Below, one piece after another: positions 2,653-17,817 of a stretch of DNA of 17,817 bases (position 1 is its first letter; each line of letters starts with the position of its first letter). The stretch covers positions 1 through 17,817 of the forward strand of contig JAATVS010000470.1 of NCBI GenBank assembly GCA_014523695.1. The letters are read 5' to 3'. The translations under genes were made by a program, and so were the position numbers. The notes under the pieces are model-generated. The model searched no databases. It was given only the letters and a program-made list of their open reading frames with translations, and was not told the origin of the DNA. The stretch comes from Nitrososphaerales archaeon TH5895 (GTDB lineage: Archaea > Thermoproteota > Nitrososphaeria > Nitrososphaerales > Nitrososphaeraceae).

Positions 2653-4377
2653 CTACCAGTAGCTGGCCTTTATTTTCTCTATTACTAATTCGTGCTCTGG
2701 ACCCTTCCTTCTGGCGAATCTCTCCATAGCGTTTAGAGGAACACCTCCCAACGACCTTGCCAAACCAGCAAAGAACAAATTCTTCATCGGGTTATCTCGT
2801 CCAACTTTTCGCATGAATTTCTGAATCCCATATTTGAAGTTGTGCTGCCATGTCTTGTACATTACTCCTAACTTAGGCGGGTCCATTGTATTGTTAATAT
2901 CAAAGAATTCGGATTTTTCTAACAATCCGATAGGGACAAATGTCAATGGCGTTACAGTAAATCTTGAATCGGGCTGTTCCGTTTCTAACTCATGAATCAA
3001 CTGGATGGTTTCCCAACTATCTTCGGGAGTCTCATCGTTGTTCAAACCCATTATCAAGGTGAAAGCCGGTACCCAGTAGTTTTGATTCAGAGTCTTAACT
3101 CCATTCTTTACAACCCAATGCCATTCATTCGGTCTGAAAGGAGCGAGCTTTCGGTCGGCATATTTTCCAATTAAGCGTGTACTTCCAGTTTCGAAGCCAC
3201 ATTGGATACCAATGTGATTTTCAGGACTCGATCCAATGATCTCGGAAATGTTTGGAATGAGTCGTTCATCGGCAATTGCGCCGGCCAAAGTACCGTGAGT
3301 AGGATTACTATGTTCAATTCCTGTATCCATAATACCTTTGAAAAGTTCCTCTAGCGCTTCTCTATTGGGTTCCATGTTCTTCGTAGTTCTTGGGTTTAAA
3401 CCGTACACAAAGATGTCATCGCTATGAATCCATGCACTTTTGGCTCCACCGTATTTCATGTTTACATGAATTTCCTTTTGCACTTTTTCGACGGGGTAAT
3501 AACGTAATGGCCTAAGGGTCACGTCGCAGAATTTGCATCCTCTCCCACAGCCCCGCATCACTTCAACCATCCCATGCATACTCGGATTTATAATGTCAGG
3601 AATTTCGTCGACGGATGGTTCATCCCTATAGTGTATAAATCGACCATGATATTTTCGCTCTGGTCGATCGTATTCTTTAACCTCGACTTTGAATTTAGAC
3701 TTTTTGAACGGATTGGCAGTATCGAAATCACCAGCTATTGCAGCATCAAAGAAACTAGCGCCAGCCCCATCTATCTCCGGACCAATTCCACCGAGATCTC
3801 CTTCAACTATACCATAGATCCCGTACTCTTCTATCTTTGCAGGATCATAGTTATATTGCCATGTGCCTGACGCACCAACTATGACTTTTGCATTACTTCC
3901 ATTCTCTTTTTTTGCCTTTGAAATGCGCATGTGTAAATCTCTGCAGTAAAATTCGTCGTAAGACATGTGTTTGCGTCCGTAAGTAAATGTCATGGTGACT
4001 GGACCCATGCCAAGAGGGTCCATTTCATACGTACCGACGATCTGAGTTTCAGGTCCTATAAATTTTTCAACATGATCAGGGTGAGCCACAACAACATCTT
4101 CTCGGCTGTAACCATCTCTGATGAGAGAAGACTCAACCTTCCTCAATCCATATGGAGCATATTTTGCGACTCCATTAATATTTTCAATTGGGTTACAGAT
4201 GAAGTCAAATAATAGCCTCGGAGTTATCTGTTGACCCATTATTTTATACAAAAGTGACGTAGGATCTCTCTTAGTATCAATAGCTGGAGCACAACCAAAG
4301 AATGAAGCTAAGGATATTCCTCTATATGGCGACATAAGTGTTCGGTCTGCAGTAAGTACAACTTTAGGATATTTCAT
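2653..4377 (-). CDS. B12-type radical SAM protein, candidate lipid or C-C bond-forming enzyme
   Basis: This 574-aa radical SAM enzyme should use a [4Fe-4S] cluster to cleave S-adenosylmethionine and form a 5'-deoxyadenosyl radical. The cluster motif is RGCGRGCKFC with Cys277-x3-Cys281-x2-Cys284. The roughly 270 residues before it (VVLTADRTLMSPYRG..., VVVAHPDHV..., KVIVGASGTWQ) have the alternating strand/helix character of a cobalamin-binding-type N-terminal domain. The barrel continues to about residue 500 (HIGIQCGFETGS, FTLIMGLNNDETPEDS), followed by a helical basic tail. Archaeal B12-binding radical SAM proteins of this size include the GDGT ring synthases GrsA/GrsB, and thaumarchaeal membranes contain ringed GDGTs including crenarchaeol, so a tetraether-modifying role is a reasonable guess, but I cannot assign it from memory of sequence alone. 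The ATG at 4377 is clear, with a weak AT box about 30 nt upstream. No operon partner is visible. Confidence 0.88.
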   Translation of the reverse strand: MKYPKVVLTADRTLMSPYRGISLASFFGCAPAIDTKRDPTSLLYKIMGQQITPRLLFDFICNPIENINGVAKYAPYGLRKVESSLIRDGYSREDVVVAHPDHVEKFIGPETQIVGTYEMDPLGMGPVTMTFTYGRKHMSYDEFYCRDLHMRISKAKKENGSNAKVIVGASGTWQYNYDPAKIEEYGIYGIVEGDLGGIGPEIDGAGASFFDAAIAGDFDTANPFKKSKFKVEVKEYDRPERKYHGRFIHYRDEPSVDEIPDIINPSMHGMVEVMRGCGRGCKFCDVTLRPLRYYPVEKVQKEIHVNMKYGGAKSAWIHSDDIFVYGLNPRTTKNMEPNREALEELFKGIMDTGIEHSNPTHGTLAGAIADERLIPNISEIIGSSPENHIGIQCGFETGSTRLIGKYADRKLAPFRPNEWHWVVKNGVKTLNQNYWVPAFTLIMGLNNDETPEDSWETIQLIHELETEQPDSRFTVTPLTFVPIGLLEKSEFFDINNTMDPPKLGVMYKTWQHNFKYGIQKFMRKVGRDNPMKNLFFAGLARSLGGVPLNAMERFARRKGPEHELVIEKIKASYW

Positions 4378-4578: not shown

Positions 4579-4962
4579 CTATTTAGGCAGCGACCTAATT
4601 ATTGGTATCTTGTCTTTCATCCCAACCACCTTGAATTTATACCTGTCCCTATAATTGCTTGCGTAGAACTGAGCGTAGCTTGCAGCAGCCTGGTATGTAC
4701 TGAATTTTACTCTCAATTCCGGGATAATTGTCTGGTTACCAACTGTGTCAAACGTTTCGATTATGTAACTTGAAGGCAATCTTCTTGCCTGTTTCATAAC
4801 CAGGTATACTGCAATCAATAGGAATATGACAGCTGATATGAATACTATTATAGCTCCAAATTCCTTTGAAAATGCTAATATGTGTGCTAGCATGTTCTCG
4901 TTTAACCATTTATACGAAAATTCAATACCTTTGAAAAATAGGCTAGCGATTACTTCATACAT
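4579..4962 (-). CDS. Small single-pass membrane protein, unknown function
   Basis: A 127-aa protein of unknown function. Residues about 36-57 (AIIVFISAVIFLLIAVYLVMK) form one strong transmembrane helix, followed at once by a basic stop-transfer segment (KQARR). The remaining 70 residues make a small soluble domain, probably cytoplasmic by the positive-inside rule, with an alternating pattern (IIETFDTV, LRVKFSTYQAAASYAQFYAS, YKFKVVG) that could be a compact alpha/beta fold. The amphipathic N-terminal 25 residues may lie on the membrane surface. The ATG at 4962 is preceded by an AT-rich box (TATACTATTATAG on the minus strand, 4997-5010), implying a short leader. It lies 85 bp downstream of the L40e gene on the same strand and could be partly co-transcribed with it. 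It is likely a real lineage-conserved gene, but this is a composition-based judgement. Confidence 0.7.
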   Translation of the reverse strand: MYEVIASLFFKGIEFSYKWLNENMLAHILAFSKEFGAIIVFISAVIFLLIAVYLVMKQARRLPSSYIIETFDTVGNQTIIPELRVKFSTYQAAASYAQFYASNYRDRYKFKVVGMKDKIPIIRSLPK

Positions 4963-5538: not shown

Positions 5539-6183
5539 ATGGCAATTAACGTCATCCCGAGAAATCAAGAACTCTATTTGGAAATTGTCAAGGATTTTTG
5601 GAGAAAAGAATGTGAAGTGAACCGGAATGAAAGTCCAGCCTACAACAACAGTGGAAACAAGGATAGGAACATCAATAGTGCAGGCCAGCAGTTTTTTTAC
5701 TTGAGTTGGAGTGAGCGAGGACCACGGAACAGGGTTTGCGATGTTCCCCACGGCAAAGGGCTCTTAATACCTATTGTGTCCGTCATAGTTTCAGATAAGG
5801 AAAGGCCAGGTGCGTCTGATCGGGATTTACACCAACTTGTGGATCAGGATCAGAAATATACGGATGATCCATTCGTAGAATTAGACGATATTCGATTTGA
5901 TCTGACCGGATTCGATCCGGTCCACACAGATGTGTTTGAGGTCAATTACCCTAACAACGCAATTTGGGATGACCATACCCATCCACCGTACCCTATTTCG
6001 CCAGGCCGTTCAAAGGCCGTAGCAGGCGGACACTATCTGCTCACAGCACCCCTTACGCCAGGTCGGCATACTGTACGTTTTGGTGGTAAGGTGGAGGTAC
6101 CCGACAAAGAGGATTGCATAGAGAGGTTTTACGATGAAAACGTTGAATATACCTTGAACGTCCGAAGTTCCCTACCTCTCTAG
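5539..6183 (+). CDS. IPxGK/ADGY-family paralog A, function unknown
   Basis: First of seven paralogs in this island, 214 aa, with no signal peptide or membrane segment. Recognisable family blocks are DFWRKE at about 19-24 (a degraded form of the W-x-W-L block), VCDVPHGKGLLIPI at 66-79 (core C-x-[IV]-P-x-G-K), ERPGAS at 88-93, a FEVNYP strand near 133-138, and AVAGGHYLLTAPLTPGRHTVRFGG at 160-183. The pattern of short hydrophobic strands separated by G/P/D turns suggests a beta-rich fold. The tail is acidic (VEVPDKEDC...) and ends NVEYTLNV, like the other members. It is likely cytoplasmic. I know of bacterial hypothetical proteins with the same block order, but of no assigned function. The ATG is supported by the TTTATTA box 30 nt upstream. 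Its C-terminal block is the closest match to the pseudogene piece at 7276-7350. Confidence 0.8.
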   Translation: MAINVIPRNQELYLEIVKDFWRKECEVNRNESPAYNNSGNKDRNINSAGQQFFYLSWSERGPRNRVCDVPHGKGLLIPIVSVIVSDKERPGASDRDLHQLVDQDQKYTDDPFVELDDIRFDLTGFDPVHTDVFEVNYPNNAIWDDHTHPPYPISPGRSKAVAGGHYLLTAPLTPGRHTVRFGGKVEVPDKEDCIERFYDENVEYTLNVRSSLPL

Positions 6184-6323
6184 ATAGTATGTAGAGCTCT
6201 CCTGTAAATTGTAAGGCTCTAGCAGACGGTCCTAGATTCCTACAGAAACAGATGCAACAGATAAAAGGAAAACGAGGATCTCATCGCACGCTTCAAGCGT
6301 ATAACGTTAAAACAATCTTCTTG

Positions 6324-6346
6324 GGTGTTTCATGATCATGAACACC
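6324..6346. promoter_or_regulatory. Palindromic operator-like element upstream of paralog B
   Basis: A perfect 10-bp palindrome CATGATCATG (6331-6340) is flanked by complementary 6-bp arms, GGTGTT (6324-6329) and AACACC (6341-6346), with one unpaired T at 6330. It lies about 140 bp before the B start codon and about 95 bp before its TATA box, and has no following T-run. That fits a dimeric regulator site better than a terminator. Confidence 0.45.
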
Positions 6347-6440
6347 ACAATTAGGGGGAAACCAATTGCAGGTTCGGATGCCATTATTTATGCGACTTCG
6401 TCACATGAATTGCATGATATTTTGGTATGAGCGTCGATCT

Positions 6441-6459
6441 TTATATTTAAAGTTTATTA
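6441..6459 (+). promoter_or_regulatory. Promoter box of paralog B
   Basis: An unbroken A/T stretch (TTATATTTAAAGTTTATTA) contains two possible TATA boxes. The downstream TTTATTA (6453-6459) begins exactly 30 nt before ATG 6483, as in A and C. The upstream TTATATTTAA (6441-6450) is a stronger consensus TATA but would give a leader of about 13 nt. Confidence 0.6.
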
Positions 6460-6482
6460 ATTTGGCTCATACATCATAAATA

Positions 6483-7178
6483 ATGACCAGCAATGGAGAT
6501 GAAGGTATACCTATCAATGGTTGTAAACTCTACAAAGCTGATAAAAAAACCGTCGAGGATTATTGGAAATGGATATGCCGCTTGCCAAAACGTGACAATC
6601 CATTTTTAAATAATGATGGAATTAAAGACATGGTACAGAACGCTGAGAGGAGAGATAAAATGTTCTTTTTGAGCCCAGCAGATTCTGGCCGATCTCACAG
6701 ATTCTGCGAGGTTCCTTCGGGTCATAAAATTCTGATCCCTTCGCTTTGTGTTGTGGCAACAGGTGGTGCAACTAAAAAAGGTGGCGAAAAACCTGGTACG
6801 GAGTTTAATGACCTCATACATTTTAATGAGGTAGATCAAGGTAATATAGAATATCGACGCGTCAAAATAGATGGACAATTAATACCTGAAGAGTTTTTGA
6901 ACGAGCGCAGACATAGTTCCAGAGAGGAAAGATTTGAAGTTAAATTTCCAGAAGACCAGCCCATCTTTAACGCTAAATCAGGAGATTGTGAAGCTGTAGC
7001 AGATGGAGTCTATCTTATTTTGGAGGAAGGTCCCCCAAAATCGGACAAGATGGGGAAAGCAAGTAAACACACGATACACCTTGAAGGGAAGATAAACTTA
7101 TCTGATGATGGGGACAGCTTAGAGACGACTAATTATACAGAGGATGTTATGTACACTCTAGTAGAGAAAGCGAAATAG
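6483..7178 (+). CDS. IPxGK/ADGY-family paralog B, function unknown
   Basis: 231-aa family member without signal peptide or TM helix. Blocks: DYWKWICRLPKRDNPFLNNDG at 26-46 (full W-x-W and NP..DG signature), MFFLSPA at 60-66, FCEVPSGHKILIPS at 74-87, the EVDQGNIEYRRVKIDG segment at 116-131, FEVKFPEDQPIF at 151-162, AVADGVYLIL at 171-180 and KHTIHLEG at 195-202. It is closest to C: EVDQGNIEYRRVKIDG in B against DVDHDNIEYRRIEIDG in C, and the DNA there is also near-identical (AATATAGAATATCG in both), pointing to a fairly recent tandem duplication. An insertion of G/K-rich residues (about 93-104) and a lysine-rich loop before KHTIH are peculiar to B. Expression should be leaderless from the TATA region at 6441-6459. 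The biochemical role is unknown. Confidence 0.82.
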   Translation: MTSNGDEGIPINGCKLYKADKKTVEDYWKWICRLPKRDNPFLNNDGIKDMVQNAERRDKMFFLSPADSGRSHRFCEVPSGHKILIPSLCVVATGGATKKGGEKPGTEFNDLIHFNEVDQGNIEYRRVKIDGQLIPEEFLNERRHSSREERFEVKFPEDQPIFNAKSGDCEAVADGVYLILEEGPPKSDKMGKASKHTIHLEGKINLSDDGDSLETTNYTEDVMYTLVEKAK

Positions 7179-7182
7179 AGAA

Positions 7183-7350
7183 TTAAATTCTGCAATCAAC
7201 TTCATCTTTCATCACGAGCAGCGTAGTAAACGCTGCCTTGTCATCAGTCCAGGGTTTATTAACTATAACAACTTTATGCTCAGCTCGCGCGAGAGGTGTT
7301 CTTTGCAGATAATGTCCACCGCTATGGCCCTTCAAGGGACTTAGGACGTT
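7183..7350 (-). pseudogene. Inverted C-terminal fragment of an A-like paralog
   Basis: On the minus strand, downstream from about 7350, the open frame reads NVLSPLKGHSGGHYLQRTPL followed by ARAEHKVVIV. This aligns with the family C-terminal block, best with paralog A (GGHYLLTAPLTPGRHTVRF). DNA similarity is evident too: GGTGGACATTATCTGC here against GGCGGACACTATCTGC in A. Only this block (about 7276-7350) is recognisably homologous; the frame then runs to a stop at 7183 without a clear family tail. The N-terminal and central blocks are absent and no start is plausible except by borrowing C's upstream region. It is therefore a decayed, inverted remnant, not a working gene. Imperfect direct repeats flank the homologous part. 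Confidence 0.6.
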
Positions 7351-7395
7351 GCTTGCAGCAGCAGTCCAAAGTTTATTAGCCATAAGAATTTATTG
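7245..7395. repeat. Imperfect direct repeats flanking the pseudogene fragment
   Basis: Copy 1 (7245-7278) and copy 2 (7362-7395) match at 26 of 34 positions, sharing CAGTCCA, GTTTATTA and ATAA at the same spacing. Similarity seems to extend upstream with small gaps (ACGYTGC just before each). Copy 2 contains the promoter box of paralog C; copy 1 looks like a duplicated, decayed version. The A-like inverted fragment sits between them. Confidence 0.6.
7372..7378 (+). promoter_or_regulatory. TATA-like box of paralog C
   Basis: TTTATTA within CAAAGTTTATTAGCC begins exactly 30 nt before ATG 7402. The match to A and B in both sequence and distance supports ATG 7402 over the TTG at 7393 as the start of C. 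Confidence 0.6.
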
Positions 7396-7401
7396 CAATT
7401 G

Positions 7402-8019
7402 ATGGCCAGCCATAGCCTGAGTCGCGCTTCACAGGAAGTTGTACAGGAATATTTCAGATGGCTTTGCAAATTTCCTAAATCCATCAACCCAGCGATACAT
7501 AATGATGGAGATAGAACAATAGCGGCCAATAAATCTAATCCTAAAGAAGATGAATATATATTTCTCACCCCCGTGATAAGTGGATCTTTTCACCGGGAAT
7601 TGGGCACAATTCAGTGCGGAAAGAAACTTCTGATAACTTCCCTTAGCTTCATCGGTTGTGAAGCTGAACGTCCTGGTTCGGATGTTTCTCAATTGTACAA
7701 GTTTGCAGATGTAGATCACGACAATATAGAATATCGCCGTATCGAGATCGACGGCAGACCGCTAGTGGGAGATTTGGAAAATCGTTTCAGGGTACGTACG
7801 GATCCTTTTGAAGTTGAATTCCCGGAGAAAGCCCTTTTCGGGGCTCGTAAGGGAGTGTCGAAGGCTGTGGCGGACGGGATTTATATTGTTTGGGAACCCG
7901 GCATAGGTAAGCACGAGATACATGTTGAAGGAAAAATAGATCTCCCCGACGAGGAGGAGGACAGCTTAGATAACTCACCTTTCACAGAGTTCTACACATA
8001 CACTTTTGGAGTAATGTAA
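7402..8019 (+). CDS. IPxGK/ADGY-family paralog C, function unknown
   Basis: 205-aa member of the same family and the closest relative of B. Blocks: EYFRWLCKFPKSINPAIHND at 16-35, YIFLTPV at 52-58, a modified central block GTIQCGKKLLITSL at 68-81 in which the usual Cys-x-I-P-x-G-K has become G-T-I-Q-C-G-K, ERPGSD at 89-94, DVDHDNIEYRRIEIDG at 103-118, FEVEFPEKALFGARKG at 136-151, AVADGIYIVWEPG at 155-167 and KHEIHVEGKIDLPDEEED at 170-187. There is no export signal. ATG 7402 is chosen because the TTTATTA box lies exactly 30 nt upstream; a TTG three codons earlier is possible. The shift of the conserved Cys and loss of the Pro indicate divergence at what is otherwise the most conserved site. The function is unknown. 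Confidence 0.8.
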   Translation: MASHSLSRASQEVVQEYFRWLCKFPKSINPAIHNDGDRTIAANKSNPKEDEYIFLTPVISGSFHRELGTIQCGKKLLITSLSFIGCEAERPGSDVSQLYKFADVDHDNIEYRRIEIDGRPLVGDLENRFRVRTDPFEVEFPEKALFGARKGVSKAVADGIYIVWEPGIGKHEIHVEGKIDLPDEEEDSLDNSPFTEFYTYTFGVM

Positions 8020-8192
8020 TTTCTCGTAATATGCTTTTGGCCGACTTCCCTCTCCTTAGATAAGATTGAATATTATAGTAGCTAGAGTGGCCATCATCAG
8101 GAACGTTCAGCATCTGAAGGAATTTGATCCCATTATATCCCTAGATCAGAGGGCGAAGAGTCAATATCATATATCTGATACTGGTTTGAGGA

Positions 8193-8912
8193 TTGAAAGC
8201 TAGTATAATCAGACCCTCCGAAAATTTTCTAGGTATGTCCTATAGTGAATGGGTGATAACTTGGTGTAATTGGCTGTTTTCCGAAGATCCTGATACGTAT
8301 GATGGCGGGGATATATTATTCCTTAGAGGAAACGTAGATTATCTCCCTGTCAATGATTCTGGTATAGGGCCGCGTTTCATTGATCCTAAGTCAATCTATG
8401 ACAGAACAGGGCAAAATGGTCAGACTATTTTTGAACGAACGGCCATCTTAGTTCCTGTGATGGTTGCGATGCTTGTAATGGGGGAGCTATACGAAGGAAG
8501 AATACTTAGGACACCGGAGCAGCTACGATATAACGCGAATCTAGATATTCATAAGTGTGGACCTGTATGGGCTACGATCATGAAAAAAGGAGAAGCGAAA
8601 CCACACAAAATCGTGGACAATCTTAAGTACTACTACGTTGCAACTCCTTTATTCAAGTTGGATGTTCCAGAAAGCAGCTCCTTGAAGGACAAGGCCGATA
8701 TAACATACGACCCTGGAAATTACGACATGGTCGCTGCAGGCATCTTCTTGTTAATCAAGTCACTTCCGCCCTCGACATATCGTATTAATTTTGGCGGTAT
8801 AACTGGGGCATATCATACCGATTCTGTTTATGATATCACAATCCAAGGTAAAAGAAAGGAAACTTTGAAAGATATTTCTGCTAGACGTTTCGTCAAGCGC
8901 AGATGGAAATAG
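8193..8912 (+). CDS. IPxGK/ADGY-family paralog D, most divergent member
   Basis: 239 aa. Family membership rests on the two ends: FLGMSYSEWVITWCNWLFSE (12-31) matches the [FY]G-x-[ST]-[YW]-x-E-W...W-x-W-L opening of E, F and G, and MVAAGIFLLIKSLPPSTYRINFGG (179-202) matches the C-terminal block, followed by SVYDITIQG. Between them ILFLRGN is the FL-x-G strand and TIFERTAILVPVMVA (78-92) replaces R-x-C-x-I-P-x-G-K-x-x-L-x-P-V, with the Cys, Pro and Lys all lost. The NP..D.TG turn is also missing. Starting at TTG 8193 keeps the conserved G-x-[ST]-Y segment; the next Met (8235) would cut into it. An AT-rich ATATCATATAT lies about 23-29 nt upstream. The basic tail (RRFVKRRWK) is unique. D ends 60 bp before the peroxidase gene on the same strand. 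Confidence 0.78.
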   Translation: MKASIIRPSENFLGMSYSEWVITWCNWLFSEDPDTYDGGDILFLRGNVDYLPVNDSGIGPRFIDPKSIYDRTGQNGQTIFERTAILVPVMVAMLVMGELYEGRILRTPEQLRYNANLDIHKCGPVWATIMKKGEAKPHKIVDNLKYYYVATPLFKLDVPESSSLKDKADITYDPGNYDMVAAGIFLLIKSLPPSTYRINFGGITGAYHTDSVYDITIQGKRKETLKDISARRFVKRRWK

Positions 8913-8942
8913 TCTATGTTTTTGTTACCTTATGGATAACGA

Positions 8943-8949
8943 TTTAATA
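8943..8949 (+). promoter_or_regulatory. TATA-like box of the DyP peroxidase gene
   Basis: TTTAATA begins exactly 30 nt before ATG 8973, consistent with a leaderless transcript starting between D and the peroxidase gene. Readthrough from D is also possible because the intergenic gap is only 60 bp. Confidence 0.5.
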
Positions 8950-8972
8950 AAAGCTCCTCCGTTTTAGTAAAA

Positions 8973-10286
8973 ATGAAAAAACTACAAGATGGAATTTATT
9001 ATCGTAGGCGTCAGTTGAACGAGTTAGGACGGGATAATAGCAATTCTAGGAATGATTGTTTTGCGATCGCGTTCTTACGAATTTCTGATAGTCTAACATC
9101 ATCAGAGATTGGCGAATACCTAAAGGGTCTTTGGCAGATATATTTAGACCTTAAGAAAGGTGTTGTTAGTGATCTGAAGGGCCATCATGTGCCGTCAGGA
9201 GACTTGTCTGTTCTTCTCGGTTATGGTCCGACTATTTTCACGATTCCCGGAATAACTAAGAAAATACCTAGGGACCTTAGGAAGCAATTTCGCAAACCGG
9301 TTTGTGGCGAACCAATTCTAGATGGATCAGGAATTAATTATAGCTTTGATGCACCTAGAAATCTGGGAATTACTGAACATGTAGCAATGCAATTTATATC
9401 AAAGTCACAGCTAGCAACCTATCGCGCCGTGGTGGAGACATGGAAATATGTTGCAATGACTACTCCACCGAAGAGAGGAATCGCCCTTTCAACATTCTTT
9501 ACAGGATTCCAACGAGACGATAGCAGGAGCTGGTTAGGATTTCACGACGAGGTTTCAAATATGAAGAACGCCAGTGAGAGAAGAAAGGCCATCGTGATCG
9601 ATAGAGCCAAGAATTATCTGGTACACCAAGATTTTTGGACTGAGGGTGGTACTTATCTTGCGTTTTTGCGCATAGGAATCAATCTTCACATGTGGGAACA
9701 GATGAAACGACGCGATCAAGAGCTCCTGATTGGAAGAGACAAATTAAATGGCATCCCTTTAGTTGGTGTCGATAGGAAAGGAAACCCCATAAGAAAACCA
9801 GGCTGCCCCCCTTTTTCACAAGTCCGATCTTATGATAAGAGGTTTCACGAACACACCAATTACTTCCACAGGCCTCCGGTAGGCAGCAGTATGAAAACTG
9901 AAATAGATACGGACAATTCGATTAGTTTGTTGAGTCAAAGCCACATTGGAAGAACGCGTCACATGGACCAGATAAAGAGCGATGATCCTGCTTCAAGACG
10001 GATATTTAGGCAAGGATTCGAATTTATCGAACCTCTCCATCATGATTCTTATAAACCTATAAGATTGGGCCTAAATTTCATCAGTTTTCAAGACGATCCC
10101 ACTAGACTATTATTTATCCTGACCGATCCTAACTGGCTTGGCACTAGCAACTTTGGAGGAACGGGAGATAATATAGCAATGAAAGATTTTCTTTCGGTTC
10201 AGGCATTAGGCATATTTTTTGTGCCCCCAAAGGAAATGCCCTTCCCCGGTGCGAGTATTTTCGACCATTTTGATGCTGGTAACTGA
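8973..10286 (+). CDS. DyP-type haem peroxidase
   Basis: A 437-aa dye-decolorising-type peroxidase. DyPs bind haem b and use H2O2 to oxidise bulky substrates. Evidence is the order of family motifs: GFHDEVSN at 189-196 aligns with G-F-x-D-G-[TS]-x-N, giving D192 as the distal Asp; EGGTYLAFLRIGINLHMWEQM at 224-244 matches GGSYLvvRri...W; QELLIGRDKLNGIPL at 249-263 is the usual QE..IGR.K..G.PL; SHIGRTRH at 323-330 supplies the likely proximal haem ligand H324; RRIFRQGFEF at 342-351 corresponds to iLRRGysy, with R346 a likely distal-pocket Arg; and GLNFISFQDDP at 366-376 is the terminal strand. No Tat or Sec signal is visible, so it is probably cytoplasmic. It is oddly altered at the GxxDG signature, where the final Gly is Glu193. 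It is flanked by paralog D upstream and converges on a membrane-protein gene. The substrate is unknown. Confidence 0.85.
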   Translation: MKKLQDGIYYRRRQLNELGRDNSNSRNDCFAIAFLRISDSLTSSEIGEYLKGLWQIYLDLKKGVVSDLKGHHVPSGDLSVLLGYGPTIFTIPGITKKIPRDLRKQFRKPVCGEPILDGSGINYSFDAPRNLGITEHVAMQFISKSQLATYRAVVETWKYVAMTTPPKRGIALSTFFTGFQRDDSRSWLGFHDEVSNMKNASERRKAIVIDRAKNYLVHQDFWTEGGTYLAFLRIGINLHMWEQMKRRDQELLIGRDKLNGIPLVGVDRKGNPIRKPGCPPFSQVRSYDKRFHEHTNYFHRPPVGSSMKTEIDTDNSISLLSQSHIGRTRHMDQIKSDDPASRRIFRQGFEFIEPLHHDSYKPIRLGLNFISFQDDPTRLLFILTDPNWLGTSNFGGTGDNIAMKDFLSVQALGIFFVPPKEMPFPGASIFDHFDAGN

Positions 10287-10345
10287 AATCACATACGTAC
10301 TTCTGACTAAAAGATGCAGACTTATGTGTCTAGGTGACCAACGGA

Positions 10346-11713
10346 TCACGAAGATCGATCTCTTTTGACTTCCTCAATAACTTGATCGAGATATTTTCTT
10401 AGTTCTTTCTCATCAAATTCGACTTTTGCCACTCTTTCTATTTCTCTTTCCTTTCCTAGAATATCCTGACTTGTAATGATCTCATTTACAGTTTTCTGCA
10501 ATTCTCTTTCCATTTCTGCCCGTCCTATGGAATGTAGCAGCTCCGGTCGCAAGGCACGTTGATAAATGTCCTTGCGTAAGTTATTATTCACTGAGACGAG
10601 CTTAGCCGAATTGTAAATGCCTATCAGTACCAGGTATGCTGCCAAGGTCAATACCGTTATCGTTGGAATCCCGAAAGGGGGGAAAGGGGTAGTCAATTGT
10701 GCAGTTGCCTGATTTCCAGCAAATATCAAGAATATGCCCCACCCGGAAATAAACATGTAAGTCTTGATTCTTTTTTCATAACTTACCGTTCTAGCTATGT
10801 TCCAAAAGGCTGATCCAAAAACCAATCCTCCTATTGGTTTGCTCAATGACAGGAATGCCAATAGTATGATAGTGACTGTTACTGGATCAACAGCTATGCT
10901 TGAGCTCAGTAAAGTGCCCAAGATAAATTGGTAAAAGAATGTTACAATGAAATAAACAAGTGGAATCAATAATACAATCGAATACGTTATAACACTGAGT
11001 AGTCTTCCCCTGTAAGAAGCCATTAGCATAGCTGTGGTAAACCATAAAGCAAAGAATGATGTGAAAGATGACACCCGGTATATAAAATCGATTGTAATAT
11101 GTCTACCACCAGACATATCTCCGGCTCCGCCAACATAAGATCCGATTTGATCTGGTCTGTCGCTTACCTTTGCACTCGAAAAAACGGCTGTCATAATTAA
11201 GTTGAATGCGATAAACCACATCGAAACAGAATACAAAAATATGATTAATTTGCGAGATGATCTATACCAAGTCAAGAACATCCATGAGAGCCATATTATG
11301 AAAACTGACGCAGTCCCGTAACTTATCGCAATTATGGCAACGGTAGTAAGGGAACTGTATTGATTGTAAAAATACAATTGAAAAATCATAACCGTCAATA
11401 GGGCACTTAAAATACTTAGTGAGGCTAATGAAATTGCAGACTGTAATTTGCTTTGCAACTGATTCGTTTTGAACGTTTTCCATACCTGTTTTAAAATAAA
11501 AAATTGTAAAATTATGCATAAAAAAGCCCCAGCCGAAAATAATGGAATCTTGATTTGAAAGTCTTTATCGATAACCTCATATATCTTAACAACTGAGGTA
11601 TCAATTAGCATAACGACTATTAACGAGAGAATTAGACACAGAAATCTCCTCTGACTAAAGGAGATTTCAAGTCCAATATTCAATCTTAGATATATTCGAT
11701 GAAGGTTAAACAT
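10346..11713 (-). CDS. Ten-TM integral membrane protein, function unknown
   Basis: 455 aa from ATG 11713. Further in-frame sequence upstream (to 11977) is only the antisense of paralog E and is excluded. About ten hydrophobic helices can be traced, from FLCLILSLIVVMLIDTSVV near residue 30 to ITVLTLAAYLVLIGIYNSAKL near residue 365. A Gly/Ser/Asp-rich loop of about 30 residues follows helix 5 (RPDQIGSYVGGAGDMSGG), probably outside the cell. A charged helical tail of about 75 residues (RAEMERELQKTVNEI...) is probably cytoplasmic. It matches no transporter signature I know. Its promoter, minus-strand TATATTTA at 11740-11747, lies about 34 nt upstream and inside a 9-bp inverted repeat. It is divergent from paralog E with 49 bp between the chosen start codons, so shared regulation is likely. 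Real gene: high confidence. Function: none assignable. Confidence 0.82.
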   Translation of the reverse strand: MFNLHRIYLRLNIGLEISFSQRRFLCLILSLIVVMLIDTSVVKIYEVIDKDFQIKIPLFSAGAFLCIILQFFILKQVWKTFKTNQLQSKLQSAISLASLSILSALLTVMIFQLYFYNQYSSLTTVAIIAISYGTASVFIIWLSWMFLTWYRSSRKLIIFLYSVSMWFIAFNLIMTAVFSSAKVSDRPDQIGSYVGGAGDMSGGRHITIDFIYRVSSFTSFFALWFTTAMLMASYRGRLLSVITYSIVLLIPLVYFIVTFFYQFILGTLLSSSIAVDPVTVTIILLAFLSLSKPIGGLVFGSAFWNIARTVSYEKRIKTYMFISGWGIFLIFAGNQATAQLTTPFPPFGIPTITVLTLAAYLVLIGIYNSAKLVSVNNNLRKDIYQRALRPELLHSIGRAEMERELQKTVNEIITSQDILGKEREIERVAKVEFDEKELRKYLDQVIEEVKRDRSS

Positions 11714-11730
11714 AATCTTTTTGTAGTGGA

Positions 11731-11764
11731 ACCAGACTCTAAATATACAAGGATTGAGTCTGGT
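11731..11764. promoter_or_regulatory. Inverted repeat in the divergent promoter of the membrane protein and paralog E
   Basis: ACCAGACTC (11731-11739) and GAGTCTGGT (11756-11764) are perfectly complementary 9-bp arms around a 16-bp A/T-rich spacer that contains the minus-strand TATATTTA box. The right arm covers the possible start codons of paralog E. The position suits a repressor site able to control both genes; an mRNA hairpin hiding the E start is the alternative. Confidence 0.55.
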
Positions 11765-12470
11765 GTCATATTTTCTTTTAATTTTCCTGACGGTAATAGT
11801 ATTATTTTCAACTTCTGGCTTGCTGATGACGGTCAGGGGTTCAAGCTCGATAGGTATTTTTCCGCCTGATAGTGAACCATACGGGCTGTCATATGCCGAA
11901 CATACACAAAATTTCTGGAAGTGGCTGCTGTCAATACCAGCAAGTGAAAATCCTATTGATGACACCACAGGAGACAAGTGTACTGTTGGCCAGTCTAATA
12001 CTAATTCATCAGTTTTCTATTTAGCAGAGGGAGAAGGTAAAGTCGAAAGGACGTGTACTATTCCAGCTGGCAAAGGTCTTCTCATCCCAGTAATGCTGGT
12101 AGAAATCTCTGACAAGGAGGTTCCGGGTGCATCAGTTGAAGAATTGAGCAATGCTGCAAAGAATGACCAAAACAGCGTTAACAGCATGTATTTAAGGGTA
12201 GATGATAAAGAATATGGTTACGGCTTACTTAGTGGATATAGGCTCGATGAGCCCACAGTCTTTCAAGCAATATTTCCAGATAATGGAATCTTCGGGGTAA
12301 TGGAAGGCGGGTCTTCAACAGCTGCGGCTGATGGATTTTACATACTTACTGAACCACTTACAGCAGGCAACCATACAGTTCACTTCAGATCGAGTCTGCT
12401 TTGTACGGAAGTAGGTTGTGCAGAACCGGCTTTTGCACAGGATGTATTGTACAATATAGTTGCAAGATAG
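11763..12470 (+). CDS. IPxGK/ADGY-family paralog E, exported or membrane-anchored member
   Basis: 235 aa from GTG 11763 (TTG 11754 is the alternative). It is the only family member here with an N-terminal hydrophobic segment (SYFLLIFLTVIVLFSTSGLLMTV, about 2-24), so it should be exported or anchored with the domain outside. It is also the most canonical copy: YGLSYAEHTQNFWKWLLSIP (40-59), ENPIDDTTGDKC (62-73), SVFYLAEG (83-90), ERTCTIPAGKGLLIPV (95-110), EVPGAS (119-124), AADGFYILTEPLTAGNHTVHF (188-208). C73 and C98 occupy positions that could form a disulfide, reasonable outside the cell, and a second pair CTEVGC lies at 214-219. Its last codons take part in a 41-bp imperfect tandem repeat reaching into the YcaO upstream region. 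It is divergent from the ten-TM protein and precedes YcaO by 101 bp. Confidence 0.82.
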   Translation: MSYFLLIFLTVIVLFSTSGLLMTVRGSSSIGIFPPDSEPYGLSYAEHTQNFWKWLLSIPASENPIDDTTGDKCTVGQSNTNSSVFYLAEGEGKVERTCTIPAGKGLLIPVMLVEISDKEVPGASVEELSNAAKNDQNSVNSMYLRVDDKEYGYGLLSGYRLDEPTVFQAIFPDNGIFGVMEGGSSTAAADGFYILTEPLTAGNHTVHFRSSLLCTEVGCAEPAFAQDVLYNIVAR

Positions 12471-12510
12471 CTTTTGCGCACGATGTTCAGGTAAATATAG
12501 TTGCGAGACA
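12429..12510. repeat. 41-bp imperfect tandem repeat at the E-YcaO junction
   Basis: Positions 12429-12469 and 12470-12510 match at 31 of 41 bases (shared GCTTTTGC, GATGT, AATATAGTTGC). The first copy encodes the end of paralog E (FAQDVLYNIVAR). The second, shifted by 41 bp and so into another frame, would encode FAHDVQVNIVARQ in the frame of the YcaO gene. This explains why that frame is open upstream of the likely YcaO start. Confidence 0.85.
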
Positions 12511-12571
12511 AAAACTCGACCGGACCTGTCAGGACTATCTAATAAGCAAATTGGTATTGAATCATCCGCAA

Positions 12572-13960
12572 ATGCGTCTTAGAAGCAGAATAAAGAGTGT
12601 GGAAAACGGGGATGGTTCTCTAGCAAGGGTAACGTCTGTCTACAACACACTCACTAAGGTCATGCCGATTTGTAAGGATATAGGAGTCACCAGAATTTCA
12701 GATATAACTTTACTGGATAGACTTTGTATTCCAAACTACTCTACAATATTACCGGGAACAGATGACATATTCTGGGTTTACGGGGGAAAAGGCACGACAA
12801 AAACCCAGGCGAAAGTAAGCGCCTTGATGGAATCGGTAGAAAGGTACTCTTCGATGCAAAGGACCAATCCAAAAACCGTTATCACGGGTGATTATATACA
12901 TTTTTCAGATTCTTTTAATAAAGTATTGCATCATTCTGAGGTAGTAGAGCCTCTGGTCCCAAATTATGAAGAAGGGAGCACAATAGATTTCTTACGAGGA
13001 TTCGATCTGCTTAACGATGAAGAAATTTTGGTTCCTGCAGAAATCGTCTATTACAGATATTTTCCAAAATGCCCTGCCGTCGCTGCATTTCAATGTTCCC
13101 ACACAAATGGACTTGCATCCGGCAATGTTCTTGAAGAAGCCATATGTCATGCACTCTGTGAAGTCATTGAAAGAGATGCGGTTAGCATAGCTGACTTATG
13201 TGCGTCTAGTATTCCATATAATATTGTTCACAAAATCGGGGAAACCTTTGAGGAAACCAGTTGCATCGGTTCTCAGCTACTGGATCACATCGGTGCGAAT
13301 TTTGTGGATGAACCCACAATTTATCCGGACGTCGAGATCGATGGATTAGCCAGAGAGTTTCCGCCCATCATAAAATTACTCCGTAAATTCACTGATGCTG
13401 GAATTCCGTTGATGATAAAATGCATAACGCAGGAAGATATCAATATTCCAACGATTGCTGCAAGCAGCATTGATTGGTTAACGCATGATTATGGGCTTTT
13501 TGCTAAGGGCTATGGAACTCACCCCGATTCGAGGGTAGCCTTGATGCGAGCGATCACTGAGCTTGCTCAAACTAGAGCGGCAAATATACAAGGAGCGAGG
13601 GATGACTTGAAAAGAATACATTATAAAGACAAGATCGAGATTTATAAGAGAAAATGGCCATTCATGCCTTCATCATATCTAACTGGGAAAAATCAACATC
13701 ATAATATCATAAATTTCCGTAATATTAAGACATATGTAAATAATGATATTTTAAACGACATAAACCTTATTCTCTCGGTACTGAAAGAAGCAGGAATAAA
13801 AAGGGCAATAATAGTCGAGCTCACAAATCCAAAGATCGGAATTCCTGTTGTAAGAGCGATTGTCCCTGGACTTGAAACCTTTGAGGTTACACACTCGGTT
13901 ATGGGCCCTAGGGCAAAAAAACATTTTAACAAACACTTTCCCTGCGTCTACAAAAGATAG
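12572..13960 (+). CDS. YcaO-domain protein (ATP-dependent peptide backbone cyclodehydratase/thioamide-type)
   Basis: 462 aa from ATG 12572. YcaO enzymes use ATP to activate a backbone amide, making azolines, thioamides or amidines. Motifs in order: SALMESVERYS (83-93, the S-x3-E-x2-E-R nucleotide/Mg site), NGLASGNVLEEAICHALCEVIERDA (179-203), GYGTHPDSRVALMRAITELAQTR (313-335) and NPKIGIPVVRAIVPGLETF (419-437), ending GPRA...KR. All the usual ATP/Mg-binding acidic residues seem present, so it should be active. The frame is open back to 12401, but that part overlaps paralog E and contains the duplicated E tail; ATG 12572 is preferred because YcaO similarity begins shortly after it. No TfuA, E1-like/ThiF or dehydrogenase partner is visible, and no classical Cys/Ser-rich RiPP precursor adjoins. 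Archaeal stand-alone YcaOs can act on proteins (McrA thioamidation in methanogens), so a protein or small-peptide target is possible. Confidence 0.88.
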   Translation: MRLRSRIKSVENGDGSLARVTSVYNTLTKVMPICKDIGVTRISDITLLDRLCIPNYSTILPGTDDIFWVYGGKGTTKTQAKVSALMESVERYSSMQRTNPKTVITGDYIHFSDSFNKVLHHSEVVEPLVPNYEEGSTIDFLRGFDLLNDEEILVPAEIVYYRYFPKCPAVAAFQCSHTNGLASGNVLEEAICHALCEVIERDAVSIADLCASSIPYNIVHKIGETFEETSCIGSQLLDHIGANFVDEPTIYPDVEIDGLAREFPPIIKLLRKFTDAGIPLMIKCITQEDINIPTIAASSIDWLTHDYGLFAKGYGTHPDSRVALMRAITELAQTRAANIQGARDDLKRIHYKDKIEIYKRKWPFMPSSYLTGKNQHHNIINFRNIKTYVNNDILNDINLILSVLKEAGIKRAIIVELTNPKIGIPVVRAIVPGLETFEVTHSVMGPRAKKHFNKHFPCVYKR

Positions 13961-14476
13961 TTTACGTTTCTGTAATTGGAGATTCAGTCATGTTAGACCC
14001 GTCACTTCTTTTCATCAATTAATCGCAAATGAATCGATTCAGAAAGCCGAGAGGAATTTTCTTTGAATGTATGAAAAAAATAGCAAACTAGTTTTCCTCT
14101 GCTAGGGATAAACTAGCTCTGACAGCGATCTCAATTATAATCATCTAAATGCATGTGCTAGTTAGTTGTGAGACATTTGGGTGGTCTCTCCCGGTGTTCT
14201 TTTTATTAGCGTTTTTCCTGCATATTTTATTGATGCATCGCGAGCAATTATTGCCTTTAGGGTTGCAAGTGCCTTTTCCATGCAATATCTGTCAGGTCCT
14301 AATTAATAAATACTATTCCAGTGATGTATCGGGTATTGCCGATTGCCGATTTCCAGTCCTCGATTCTAGTTATGTATTATATCGCTGGCCATATCTGTTC
14401 ATGATAGCCGAGAGAAGAAGTAGCTGCCCCAGAACGACTACCGTTTACATCGATACTGTGTCGTCACGCTGACTTT
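13961..14476. other. Gene-poor region between YcaO and paralog F
   Basis: About 515 bp without a gene I can support. A 107-codon frame (14149-14472, +) has a hydrophobic stretch but no family motif and no box at -30. Small oddities are AAACTAG occurring twice (about 14085-14120) and a short tandem ATTGCCG pair near 14335. No tRNA, terminator T-run or paralog remnant was found on either strand. Confidence 0.5.
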
Positions 14477-15088
14477 CTATTCAATATAGACTTTATAGAT
14501 AGCTCCAGAATGCAATCGTCCCATTTCACACGAACCTTGGTAAGAGATAGTATGTTCACCCCTTGAGAGTGGTTTCAAGAATGCCCAGTAACCATCAGCA
14601 GATGCGTGAGTCAATCCTCCTTTGACACTAAATAGATTGTCCTCGACCAATCTCACCTCAAATATTAGAGGATCGGAACGAACACGGTGTACCGGAACTG
14701 CTTTACCGTCCAAATAGCAGTGGTATGATACTATAGTATCTTCATCACTTTTTGCACGTTGCTCTATGTCTTTGTAAGATTCTAATTCAGGATTTTCTAA
14801 TGGATTCGCTTCGCAGTTTATCACAGGTACTAGAATCGACTTCTGACCCGATACTTTACAGCTACGCTCAGGAAGGTTTTTCCCTTTTTCGGCCAACTTT
14901 CCAGCGAGAAACAACACGTCACGATTCTGCTGATTCATCGTAGTATATTTCCCACTCGGATCTACGACAGGGTTGATTCGCCTAGGGATGCCTAGGATCC
15001 AACGCCACCATTCCACCGTCCAGTTTCCATACGTCTTGCCATAAGGTGTATCACTTGCAATGAAAAAACCTACTGGTTTATCATTCAT
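14477..15088 (-). CDS. IPxGK/ADGY-family paralog F, function unknown
   Basis: 203 aa from ATG 15088 (GTG 15100 would add four residues). It is the only intact member on the minus strand. Blocks: TPYGKTYGNWTVEWWRWILGIPRRINP (14-40), a good match to the start of E and G; VVDPSGKY with the first conserved Cys replaced by Thr; VLFLAGK (58-64), ERSCKVSGQKSILVPV (74-89), where the I-P-x-G-K core has become V-S-G-Q-K; the strand IFEVRLVEDNLFSVKGG; and HASADGYWAFLKPLSRGEHTISYQGS near the C terminus, ending AIYKVYIE. There is no signal peptide or TM segment. Its promoter is unclear: minus-strand TTCATAAG and ATCATAACTATAG lie 35-60 nt upstream. F and G are divergent neighbours about 390 bp apart and are more like each other at the N-terminal block than like A-C. 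Function unknown. Confidence 0.82.
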   Translation of the reverse strand: MNDKPVGFFIASDTPYGKTYGNWTVEWWRWILGIPRRINPVVDPSGKYTTMNQQNRDVLFLAGKLAEKGKNLPERSCKVSGQKSILVPVINCEANPLENPELESYKDIEQRAKSDEDTIVSYHCYLDGKAVPVHRVRSDPLIFEVRLVEDNLFSVKGGLTHASADGYWAFLKPLSRGEHTISYQGSCEMGRLHSGAIYKVYIE

Positions 15089-15368
15089 AATCCGGTCCAC
15101 TTAGATCGACGGCATTGGTAACTTATGAAGCTATAGTTATGATAAACGCGGGGGTACCTCTATATTACTGGTTAACAAATTATTTTATAACGCGAATTGG
15201 CTAGACCGGGCCTTCTCCTCGAAATACGGCAATCTCGAACAGCTTCACAGTAGTGGAAAGAAATAGGCCTTGTAGGTTGACTACCACAAGTACGCTGGCG
15301 CCATCTAACGAGCTTGGTCGGATAGATAGGGAACAAGGTAATAATCAAATAACAGCAGGTGTTCGTAT

Positions 15369-15482
15369 ATGAAAGTGATATTTGGAAAGGTAACTAAAGC
15401 AAAATTTAGAAATCAACAAGTGTCAGGTTACTATGCGCGTTTAAAGTGCTGTTCACGGAACTGTAAAGGCGATACTTATTGA
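15369..15482 (+). CDS. Possible small Cys-rich basic peptide overlapping paralog G
   Basis: A 37-codon frame from ATG 15369 begins MKVIFGKVTKAKF and ends YYARLKCCSRNCKGDTY. It is strongly basic and has three Cys near the C terminus (CCSRNC). Its TGA overlaps the ATG of paralog G by one base (TGATG), the arrangement of translationally coupled genes, and AT-rich TAATAATC starts exactly 30 nt before its ATG, the same distance as the boxes of A, B and C. Against it, frames this short arise by chance, and no homologue is known to me. If real, it could be a leader peptide for G or a small partner; its Cys-rich tail would also be a formal candidate for a modification substrate. Confidence 0.33.
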   Translation: MKVIFGKVTKAKFRNQQVSGYYARLKCCSRNCKGDTY

Positions 15483-16162
15483 TGGTCTGTCCCTTCCTTT
15501 ATGAACTTCACGAGCACCCGTTTGGTAAATCATGGCAGGAGTGGGCTGCTTTATGGTGTAGATGGATGCTTTCGATTCCAAAGAAAAAAAATCCATCATT
15601 AGATAGAACTGGCAAGTATTGCTCAATCAATCAGGATGACCATAATGTCTGGTTCTTGACAGGATCGTTTGGAAACGTTGGCCCAATCAAACGCAAGTGT
15701 ATCATACCGTCAGGAAAGGCGATCTTTTTTCCTGTACTTGTGAAAGAAGACTCCTTGGCCGAAGATTCTGACCTTAAGACTGAAGCCGATTTGATTAAGC
15801 GCTGTGAGCAAGCCACTAATAGGCTTATCAATATTGAAGCATCTATTGATGATCAGCGGATGGAACATTTAAGGAATTATCGAGTGCGATCCGAGGTTTT
15901 TGACTTGATGGTCCCGAAGGAGAACGTATATAACGTAAGACCTGGCCTAACTCGGTCAGTATGTGACGGGTATTGGCTTTTCATAAAGCCGTTACAGGCT
16001 GGTATTCACTCGATATTTTTTAAGGGGGAAACTTCGCTTGAAGAACCCTACACTATGAATCAGTTAAAGGGGAATGCGATTCATAGCCCAATTTGGAAGA
16101 ACATGGACAAAAACTCAACATTCAAACTAGAGGTTTCTTATGATTTAACAATTAGAAAATAG
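15482..16162 (+). CDS. IPxGK/ADGY-family paralog G, function unknown
   Basis: 226 aa from ATG 15482 (a TTG lies one codon earlier). Blocks: HPFGKSWQEWAALWCRWMLSIPKKKNPSLDRTGKYC (12-47), VWFLTGSFG (56-64), KRKCIIPSGKAIFFPVL (70-86), FDLMVPKENVYNVRPG, SVCDGYWLFIKPLQAGIHSIFFKG, ending KLEVSYDLTIRK. C47 and C73 correspond to the Cys pair of E, but no signal peptide is visible, so the disulfide idea would not hold unless it is exported by another route. G resembles F (GKYTTMNQ in F, GKYCSINQ in G). Its C-terminal region has an extra 25-residue insertion (NQLKGNAIHSPIWKNMDKN). It may be translated from its own box (TTTAAAG, 15440-15446) or coupled to the small frame ending on its start codon. Confidence 0.82.
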   Translation: MVCPFLYELHEHPFGKSWQEWAALWCRWMLSIPKKKNPSLDRTGKYCSINQDDHNVWFLTGSFGNVGPIKRKCIIPSGKAIFFPVLVKEDSLAEDSDLKTEADLIKRCEQATNRLINIEASIDDQRMEHLRNYRVRSEVFDLMVPKENVYNVRPGLTRSVCDGYWLFIKPLQAGIHSIFFKGETSLEEPYTMNQLKGNAIHSPIWKNMDKNSTFKLEVSYDLTIRK

Positions 16163-16550: not shown

Positions 16551-16853
16551 TTGGATTACTTTGAAATCGAAAGGTTGATAGAGGATTTAGCGAAGCTGTA
16601 TTCTTGTTCTTGTGCTACCAGCTGGTTCAAGGTGGAAGGTCAGTGGAATCCAACGAGAGATGAATTCAGGAACAAGGTAGTTGAATTCATGAACCACTTC
16701 GAATATACCCTATCACAGTTCCCCAACTCCCCGGAAAGTGAAAAATTCAAAAAGCGAACTAGGGATCTTCTCGGAAAGGAGTCCATGCTTGTTATTAAGG
16801 GTGACAATAAAGAAGTTGAAAAAAGATACAATTACTTTGTGAATTCCAGATAA
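16551..16853 (+). CDS. Small hypothetical protein
   Basis: A 100-aa protein I do not recognise. It looks mostly alpha-helical and charged (LIEDLAKLY, FRNKVVEFMNHFEYTLSQF, SEKFKKRTRDLLGKES, EVEKRYNYFV), with a CSCATSW segment at 19-25 that could be a reactive or metal-binding site, though only two Cys are present. There is no membrane segment. The start is a TTG at 16551, the first usable initiator after an in-frame TAA at 16518; the next candidate, TTG 16575, would remove eight residues. Amino-acid composition is typical of a real soluble protein, and the TTTTAATC box at the right distance supports a gene. It lies between the paralog island and the FBP aldolase/phosphatase gene on the same strand, 231 bp from the latter. 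Confidence 0.55.
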   Translation: MDYFEIERLIEDLAKLYSCSCATSWFKVEGQWNPTRDEFRNKVVEFMNHFEYTLSQFPNSPESEKFKKRTRDLLGKESMLVIKGDNKEVEKRYNYFVNSR

Positions 16854-17084: not shown

Positions 17085-17817
17085 ATGAAAGTAACTGTAT
17101 CAGCTATAAAAGCAGACATCGGGGCGATTGGAGGTCATACAAGACCCAGTGATGAACTTTTAAACTCGGTTAAGGAATTTGTAAAGAAAAATTCAAAAAA
17201 TCTGTTAATTGATTTGTACATAGGGTACACAGGTGACGATATTCACCTTATTATGAGTCATACCCATGGAATAGAAAATGAGAAGATTCACAAACTAGCA
17301 TGGGACGCATTTACCACTGGTACCAAAGTAGCAAAGGAACAGGGATTGTACGGAGCAGGCCAGGATCTCCTAAAGGATGCGTTTTCAGGTAATGTCAAAG
17401 GCATGGGACCTGGAGTAGCAGAAATTGAGATGGAAGAGCGGCCAAGTGAGGTATTCAGTGTATATGCCGCAGACAAGACGGAACCCGGAGCATTTAACTT
17501 CCCACTATGGCGTGCCTTTGTGGACGCAGGAAGCAATACAGGTTTGTTAATAAACGAGAAGCTAGCTAGTGGTGTCACTTTTAGAATTATGGACGTCATG
17601 TCTGGAAAATTGGCAAGCCTAAAGATGTGGGAGGATAAGGCAGAGTTGGAAGCCGCCCTTATGTACCCCGGACAATTTGTAGTTCACTCAATCGTCTCAT
17701 CTGAAAAAGAAGATGGGGAGGTAATCGTATCTGCTTCTACAGATAGATTGCATAATATCGCGGGCACATATGTAGGTAAAGATGACCCGATAATGATAGT
17801 TCGGACTCAGAAGGATA
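17085..17817 (+). CDS. fbp: Fructose-1,6-bisphosphate aldolase/phosphatase, 3' end missing
   Basis: The bifunctional archaeal-type gluconeogenic enzyme condenses triose phosphates to fructose 1,6-bisphosphate and then dephosphorylates it to fructose 6-phosphate in the cytoplasm. The first 244 residues are present; the family is usually about 360-400 aa, so the rest lies beyond the window. Diagnostic features: an N terminus MKVTVSAIKADIGAIGGHTRPSDE with metal/catalytic D11 and H18, GDD at 50-52, DKTEPGAFNFPLWRAF at 130-145, and YVGKDDP at 229-235, where K232 matches the Schiff-base Lys of the aldolase activity. ATG 17085 gives exactly this conserved start, and a TTTATGAT box lies 31-38 nt upstream. 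The gene is undamaged as far as visible and, like L40e on the left, marks conserved chromosome outside the island. Confidence 0.95.
   Translation, partial: MKVTVSAIKADIGAIGGHTRPSDELLNSVKEFVKKNSKNLLIDLYIGYTGDDIHLIMSHTHGIENEKIHKLAWDAFTTGTKVAKEQGLYGAGQDLLKDAFSGNVKGMGPGVAEIEMEERPSEVFSVYAADKTEPGAFNFPLWRAFVDAGSNTGLLINEKLASGVTFRIMDVMSGKLASLKMWEDKAELEAALMYPGQFVVHSIVSSEKEDGEVIVSASTDRLHNIAGTYVGKDDPIMIVRTQKD

Follow-up and report, generated by a model that had tools for sequence, protein, structure and literature searches.

The stretch of DNA analysed here (the window), comprising 17,817 nucleotides of contig JAATVS010000470.1 from the soil ammonia-oxidising Nitrososphaerales archaeon TH5895 (assembly GCA_014523695.1), harbours seven genes (A to G) of one protein family, termed FAM in this work, and next to E a gene for a multi-pass membrane protein, termed MEMB. 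An earlier note had described an array of seven paralogs; the locus is more structured than this first reading and combines a FAM–MEMB pair, the FAM protein of which is presumably secreted, with leaderless paralogs, all within a slot that varies in content. According to the reading we favour, to which we assign a probability of about 0.38 on the basis of sequence analysis, proteins of the E type would act outside the cytoplasm together with a membrane sensor, and A–D, F and G would be intracellular derivatives. In the assembly (3.88 Mb in 719 contigs, 92% complete, contamination 2.38%), the window corresponds to contig C339, and C454 (locus L044), C508 and C315 (locus L046) were also analysed; G-numbers denote compared genomes, L-numbers extracted loci, g1 the genus of the window and f1 the Nitrososphaeraceae.

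All seven open reading frames (ORFs), located between positions 5,539 and 16,162 as previously noted, are intact and alignable in a common block order. The three blocks described for them are shared with the restriction that D has a gap at the central C-x-P-x-G-K block; moreover, both conserved cysteines are missing in C. Protein A alone recovers E, C, B, G and F in its own genome with E-values from 7.5e-25 to 6.4e-5 and misses D, which is recovered with E = 4.9e-59 by profile A4, built without D and including metagenome relatives that a D-containing profile had found. The sequences thus identify the seven genes as one homologous family, beyond chance. The number seven holds for the window and understates the family, as a profile of the seven sequences finds 24 matches, some of them fragments, in the same assembly. 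The family was rightly called uncharacterised with bacterial relatives, since profile searches agree with this view and no functional assignment was found: A–G have no significant match in Pfam, NCBIfam, PHROGs or PADLOC (weak chance rows only), FAM profiles gave 0 matches against PDB sequences, and no title on FAM was among the matches listed from the open-access literature.

The members are of two kinds. A hydropathy rule, applied here and below instead of a dedicated signal-peptide program, assigns an export signal to E, whose hydrophobic N-terminal helix spans residues 3–20, and none to A, B, C, D, F and G; upstream extension of the leaderless frames adds 0 to 16 codons at most. In the family alignment, 180 of 186 signal-bearing rows possess Cys76 as well as Cys101 of E, versus 19 of 53 leaderless ones, G being an exception which is leaderless yet keeps both. 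This tally covers 239 of 359 rows; those dropped are 94 rows gapped at one of the cysteine columns, 91 of which are leaderless, and 26 rows with an ambiguous leader. Since E served as search query, its subfamily is over-represented in the alignment (124 of 359 rows). When relatedness was controlled, only four independent pairs were left for comparing the leader with cysteine loss, a number too small for a test, and the association was not significant.

The second line of evidence is the neighbourhood of the signal-bearing genes. Among 45 FAM ORFs, taken from loci picked by the position of FAM or of fructose-1,6-bisphosphatase (FBPase) before MEMB was searched for, MEMB accompanies, at a distance of up to 400 bp, 12 of 16 signal-bearing genes, 1 of 27 leaderless genes and neither of 2 ambiguous ones (Fisher 1.4e-6, relatedness not controlled); one leaderless gene of L046 is found at 415 bp, and MEMB had been noticed by eye in L045, L046, L049 and L050 before later loci were chosen. 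The 12 pairs are arranged divergently in eight, convergently in two and in tandem in two cases. Eight further FAM genes (set B), all adjoining MEMB, were fetched with the MEMB positions known and are therefore excluded from the 12 of 16, but included in a set of 20 adjacent pairs. Across these, FAM distances are correlated with MEMB distances (r 0.37). A value as high came up in 10 of 5000 shuffles, in 169 of 5000 when shuffling was confined to single genomes, and in 59 of 5000 when the near-duplicate L050 was left out; in 11 of 20 pairs both proteins have the same nearest neighbour. For the window E–MEMB pair, this neighbour is L143 (G016) with respect to FAM as well as MEMB. MEMB also matches in 24 of 41 genomes, including five Nitrososphaeraceae genomes without FAM match. 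The array is indeed mixed with a peroxidase relative, a YcaO protein and a membrane protein, and the recurrence of the first two beside FAM, which the note had proposed to check, was observed in 5 and 4 of 17 tabulated loci, respectively; MEMB is the commonest neighbour with 12 of 17, and DyP or YcaO was accordingly rejected as general FAM partner. The YcaO count derives from one tabulation, and the partial DyP gene of L044 falls under the length limit of this tabulation, which taken alone gives four DyP loci instead of five.

MEMB itself appears to be related to the input parts of sensor kinases. The window protein has no Pfam match, and HisKA and HATPase_c were not found in it. The MEMB profile matches about 440 positions on the N-terminal side of kinases of ca. 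1020 residues, among which HisKA and HATPase_c exceed the Pfam cut-offs in three of three tested; a response regulator gene follows closely downstream of one of these long relatives. Proteins of ca. 1020 residues in L215, L216, L217 and L219, to which the three tested kinases belong, contain a MEMB-type membrane part without Pfam match and a long middle part. The predicted MEMB structure shows about ten long helices and a helical tail (model confidence, pLDDT, 78), and its similarity to seven-transmembrane rhodopsin and G-protein-coupled receptor-like proteins is not decisive. Compared to the Nitrososphaeraceae histidine kinases, with which it shares a homologous membrane input part, the window MEMB ends after the short helical tail and carries no kinase. 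A two-gene system composed of an extracytoplasmic binding protein and a membrane sensor is known from LuxP–LuxQ. The window resembles it in that a secreted putative binding protein is encoded beside a sensor-type membrane protein, but differs in the predicted FAM fold, which is Ig-like and not that of periplasmic binding proteins, in the stand-alone MEMB without kinase and in the presence of a leaderless paralog array.

From these data we infer the following scenario. FAM would be an immunoglobulin (Ig)-like domain protein whose secreted form E partners MEMB outside the cytoplasm, binding an external ligand or an envelope component, and MEMB, as a multi-pass sensor module, would relay the signal inward. 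The leaderless A–D, F and G would stay in the cytoplasm, mostly without the presumed disulfide, and probably take part in intracellular recognition of a related kind. The whole gene set resides in a chromosomal slot, the content of which would be transferred in the form of cassettes, either from lineage to lineage or from one slot to another.

In the model of E (pLDDT 91.8), a Trp-rich helix is followed by a predicted Ig-like beta sandwich, the region 85–238 being similar to Ig-like folds. Such a fold would also suit surface or secreted proteins for adhesion to cells, matrix or minerals, or proteins of the envelope, with MEMB serving assembly or anchoring rather than sensing, and a cyanobacterial member with an RTX repeat stretch is annotated as a type I secretion target. 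We regard this alternative as doubtful, as six of seven array members are leaderless, long MEMB relatives bear kinase domains, and FAM offers one small domain without repeats or anchor. The best structural matches of E in Foldseek are chagasin-like inhibitors, with weak similarity (best E 1.3e-3; EhICP2 probability 0.97), and C1 and M4 peptidase genes occur in 2 and 4 of 17 FAM loci, respectively; FAM could thus be conceived as chagasin/ICP (I42) inhibitors matched to the peptidases of the same islands. Chagasin/ICP inhibitors act through NPTTG-like and RPW/F-like loop motifs. These are nearly absent from FAM, the former being present in 2 and the latter in 3 of 359 rows, and the E model, in which the similarity to their Ig-like topology is weak, has an extra N-terminal helix and inserted helices; a chagasin-type inhibitor was therefore rejected and an inhibitory role is considered highly improbable. 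The preferred sensor-partner reading is supported by a G006 family member whose C-terminal part is Cache-like (dCache_1 7.6e-9, 35.9 bits, under the 45-bit cut-off); a G012 member has a similar look as judged by eye.

Fused or extended FAM proteins are encoded in L187 (5701–7080), L083 (4063–5274), L046 (5585–6535) and L141 (4335–5597); they include forms with a SnoaL_2 domain or with RTX repeats, besides two long ones that lack a Pfam match. A viral origin was rejected, since E gave no tblastn match in 50,697 phage records and no viral fold match at E <= 1e-3, and profile A3 or E led to no confirmed relative in viral contigs.

The array occupies a slot between a radical SAM gene (rSAM) and FBPase (Table 1). 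FAM genes are found in all six g1 contigs which reach rSAM/TM127 or FBPase (the window, C454, C508, C315, G001 C181 and G003 C110), and the slot contents differ between them, FAM sets being combined with MEMB, DyP, YcaO or peptidases. Peptidase genes were located in L046 (3298–4404) and L125 (8182–9120) as well as in L124 and L138, the M4 type being thermolysin-like and the C1 type papain-like. No FBPase match was obtained in G002 and G004, and FAM is absent from 11 FBPase loci of other genera, eight with at least 5.7 kb and three with 0.6–2.4 kb upstream of FBPase.

Table 1. Genes of the window with their positions, strands and the basis of their description.
Feature	Position	Strand	Remarks
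Radical SAM protein (putative)	2653..4377	-	left slot flank; kept in C508, C454, C315, G003; recognised from sequence
TM127, 127 residues, one hydrophobic stretch	4579..4962	-	left flank; same place in C454, C508, C315, G001, G003
FAM gene A, leaderless	5539..6183	+	alignment; clade with B and C
FAM gene B, leaderless, evolving fast	6483..7178	+	alignment; dN/dS 0.73 vs C454
FAM gene C, leaderless, without cysteine pair	7393..8019	+	alignment; dN/dS 0.32
FAM gene D, divergent subfamily without central motif	8193..8912	+	alignment, profile, tree; dN/dS 0.14
DyP-type peroxidase relative, adjoins D	8973..10286	+	Dyp_perox_C E=1.1e-18; nearest PDB deferrochelatase/EfeB
MEMB, 455 residues (start as in P0214), divergent to E	10346..11713	-	membrane protein; long relatives are histidine kinases
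FAM gene E, signal-peptide-like N terminus, Cys76/Cys101	11754..12470	+	model, hydropathy rule, alignment
YcaO protein, 462 residues	12572..13960	+	PF02624 E=8.3e-70; nearest PDB MJ1094
FAM gene F, leaderless	14477..15100	-	alignment, tree
FAM gene G, leaderless, both cysteines kept	15479..16162	+	alignment, tree
p100, 100-residue protein	16551..16853	+	right flank; precedes FBPase in related loci
Fructose-1,6-bisphosphatase (putative, archaeal type)	17085..17816	+	right flank, cut at window end; recognised from sequence

Between C454 and C339, synonymous divergence (dS) is low in the array (B 0.26, C 0.13, D 0.14, start of DyP 0.08) and high in the flanking rSAM (1.24; 0.85–2.28), which implies different histories of array and flank. 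The rSAM of C454 is close to that of C508 instead (dS 0.29), although the TM127 genes of the same two contigs differ by 0.93, so that the flank is not uniform either. Judged from these distances, array or flank has been exchanged between lineages or, provided that the contigs belong to one genome, between slots; the mobility of the gene block is apparently not tied to that of the adjacent genes. Gene A is present in C454 as a fragment according to BLAST, and L044 contains degraded A-like and B-like remnants with internal stops (3612–3947 and 2956–3192) near intact counterparts of B, C and D, indicating that slot members also get lost.

The earlier note had further suggested diversification at the central site and selection for multiple specificities. 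The former is contradicted by the R.C.P.GK..P block: when 15 blocks are ranked from the least variable upwards, it takes third place in the E subfamily, with a mean entropy of 0.38, and likewise among the remaining family members, with 2.11. For the latter, the ratio of nonsynonymous to synonymous divergence (dN/dS) versus C454 is raised in B (0.47–1.17 around the value in Table 1), which points to relaxed or fast change, but the values of C and D indicate constraint, so that selection for multiple specificities was not borne out for the array. One might also envisage a polymorphic conflict or kin-recognition locus, at which secreted FAM proteins hit other cells and leaderless paralogs act as immunity proteins or decoys. 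Different FAM sets in one slot, the distinct histories of array and flank, the position of leaderless A–C nearest to the E clade and the fast evolution of B would fit; yet no toxin-like domain was seen, PADLOC anti-phage models matched 0 families for ten window proteins at E up to 0.1, E varies little among its 124 subfamily rows, and C and D are constrained, which makes this explanation very unlikely in our opinion.

The additional slots of the assembly (C339, C508, C315 and C454) rather probably reflect co-binned contigs of co-occurring lineages. FBPase has three copies in this assembly versus one each in G001 and G003, the window rSAM and FBPase genes are 84–91% alike in DNA to the other copies, and rpoB and the gene upstream of rSAM were found once each. 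Against co-binning stand the low contamination estimate and two or more FBPase matches even in the one-contig genomes G005 and G023. The differing slot contents hold under co-binning and under duplication, because G001 and G003 show them too; if the slots are duplicates, exchange ran between slots of one genome.

With the seven-sequence profile, FAM matches were obtained in 19 of 41 genomes, every one in Nitrososphaeraceae. Within g1, G001 has 40, the own assembly the above-mentioned 24 and the other three genomes 4, 6 and 9 matches, fragments included. A class-wide profile scan, evaluated for the best 10 matches per genome, revealed FAM in 29 of 300 genomes, all Nitrososphaeraceae; among FAM matches listed with an organism name (n = 5), four are from Nitrososphaeraceae and one from a Methanobacteriota assembly. 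In a one-genome-per-species collection scanned by two short motifs, at least 62 FAM loci were confirmed, a lower bound, of which 19 are archaeal and 43 bacterial by record title (Pseudomonadota, Acidobacteriota, Verrucomicrobiota, Planctomycetota, Actinomycetota, Chloroflexota, Gemmatimonadota and others). The bacterial loci contain one FAM ORF in 37 and two in 6 of 43 cases, and the flanks of 12 of them, read by eye, have no neighbour in common. A frame-broken FAM copy in L203, on a contig labelled Nitrosopumilus sp., lies outside the usual archaeal range and is possibly due to a binning or label error.

In the FAM tree, the bootstrap of which is not fully settled, archaeal rows are mostly together, with a weak deep fork (42/88). 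A, B and C form one clade (99/87), which is joined (100/97) with the E clade (100/85); D, F and G are placed in other subfamilies, and the clade of D has members from G000, G001, G005 and G008. Local expansion, as initially assumed for all seven genes, is hence seen for A, B and C, while D, F and G stand elsewhere; the seven genes require six label changes on the tree, compared to 6.9 on average after shuffling, and 49 of 500 shuffles gave a number as low. It is plausible that FAM crossed between bacteria and archaea once or a few times and expanded afterwards. This view is in line with the general pattern of lateral gene transfer and subsequent gene duplication in Nitrososphaerales described in the part of PMC7603488 considered; FAM is likewise also bacterial and expanded in some lineages, whereas neither FAM nor single-slot cassette exchange is mentioned in that part of the text. 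For gene gains and losses in ammonia-oxidising archaea, a dyp-type peroxidase is named in a figure legend of PMC7554672.

The remaining genes of the window were characterized as follows. The DyP relative exceeds the Dyp_perox_C cut-off (68 versus 20 bits) and stays below that of TIGR01413 (70.2 versus 100.5 bits). Peroxidases of the DyP type usually possess a GxxDG motif. The corresponding position reads GFHDE in the window protein and GFVDG in the DyP protein of C315, and the former may not be a normal peroxidase. The start of the YcaO protein was placed at the Met common to the C315 copy, and its TIGR03266 match is below the cut-off. A 39-nucleotide direct repeat with 41-nucleotide spacing (12429–12508) straddles the stop codon of E, so that the sequence encoding its last strand seems to be repeated 3′ of the stop. 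A tRNA-linked island is not indicated, as neither a tRNA nor an Rfam match was found within the window.

FAM, for which no Pfam or NCBIfam model was found, is spread over numerous bacterial phyla, and in relatives of ammonia-oxidising soil archaea a single genome contains as many as 40 matches. Its pairing with a membrane protein resembling kinase inputs provides a testable hypothesis on the role of FAM, and the slot represents a marker of gene exchange in the genus. In an extended and unlikely version of the proposed scenario, the locus would be an exchangeable recognition locus, at which a secreted, disulfide-bonded sensor partner repeatedly became leaderless, cysteine-poor intracellular paralogs and whole blocks were swapped. 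If this were true, the swapped blocks would equip each lineage with its own paired outside and inside repertoire for ligands or for discrimination between kin and non-kin.

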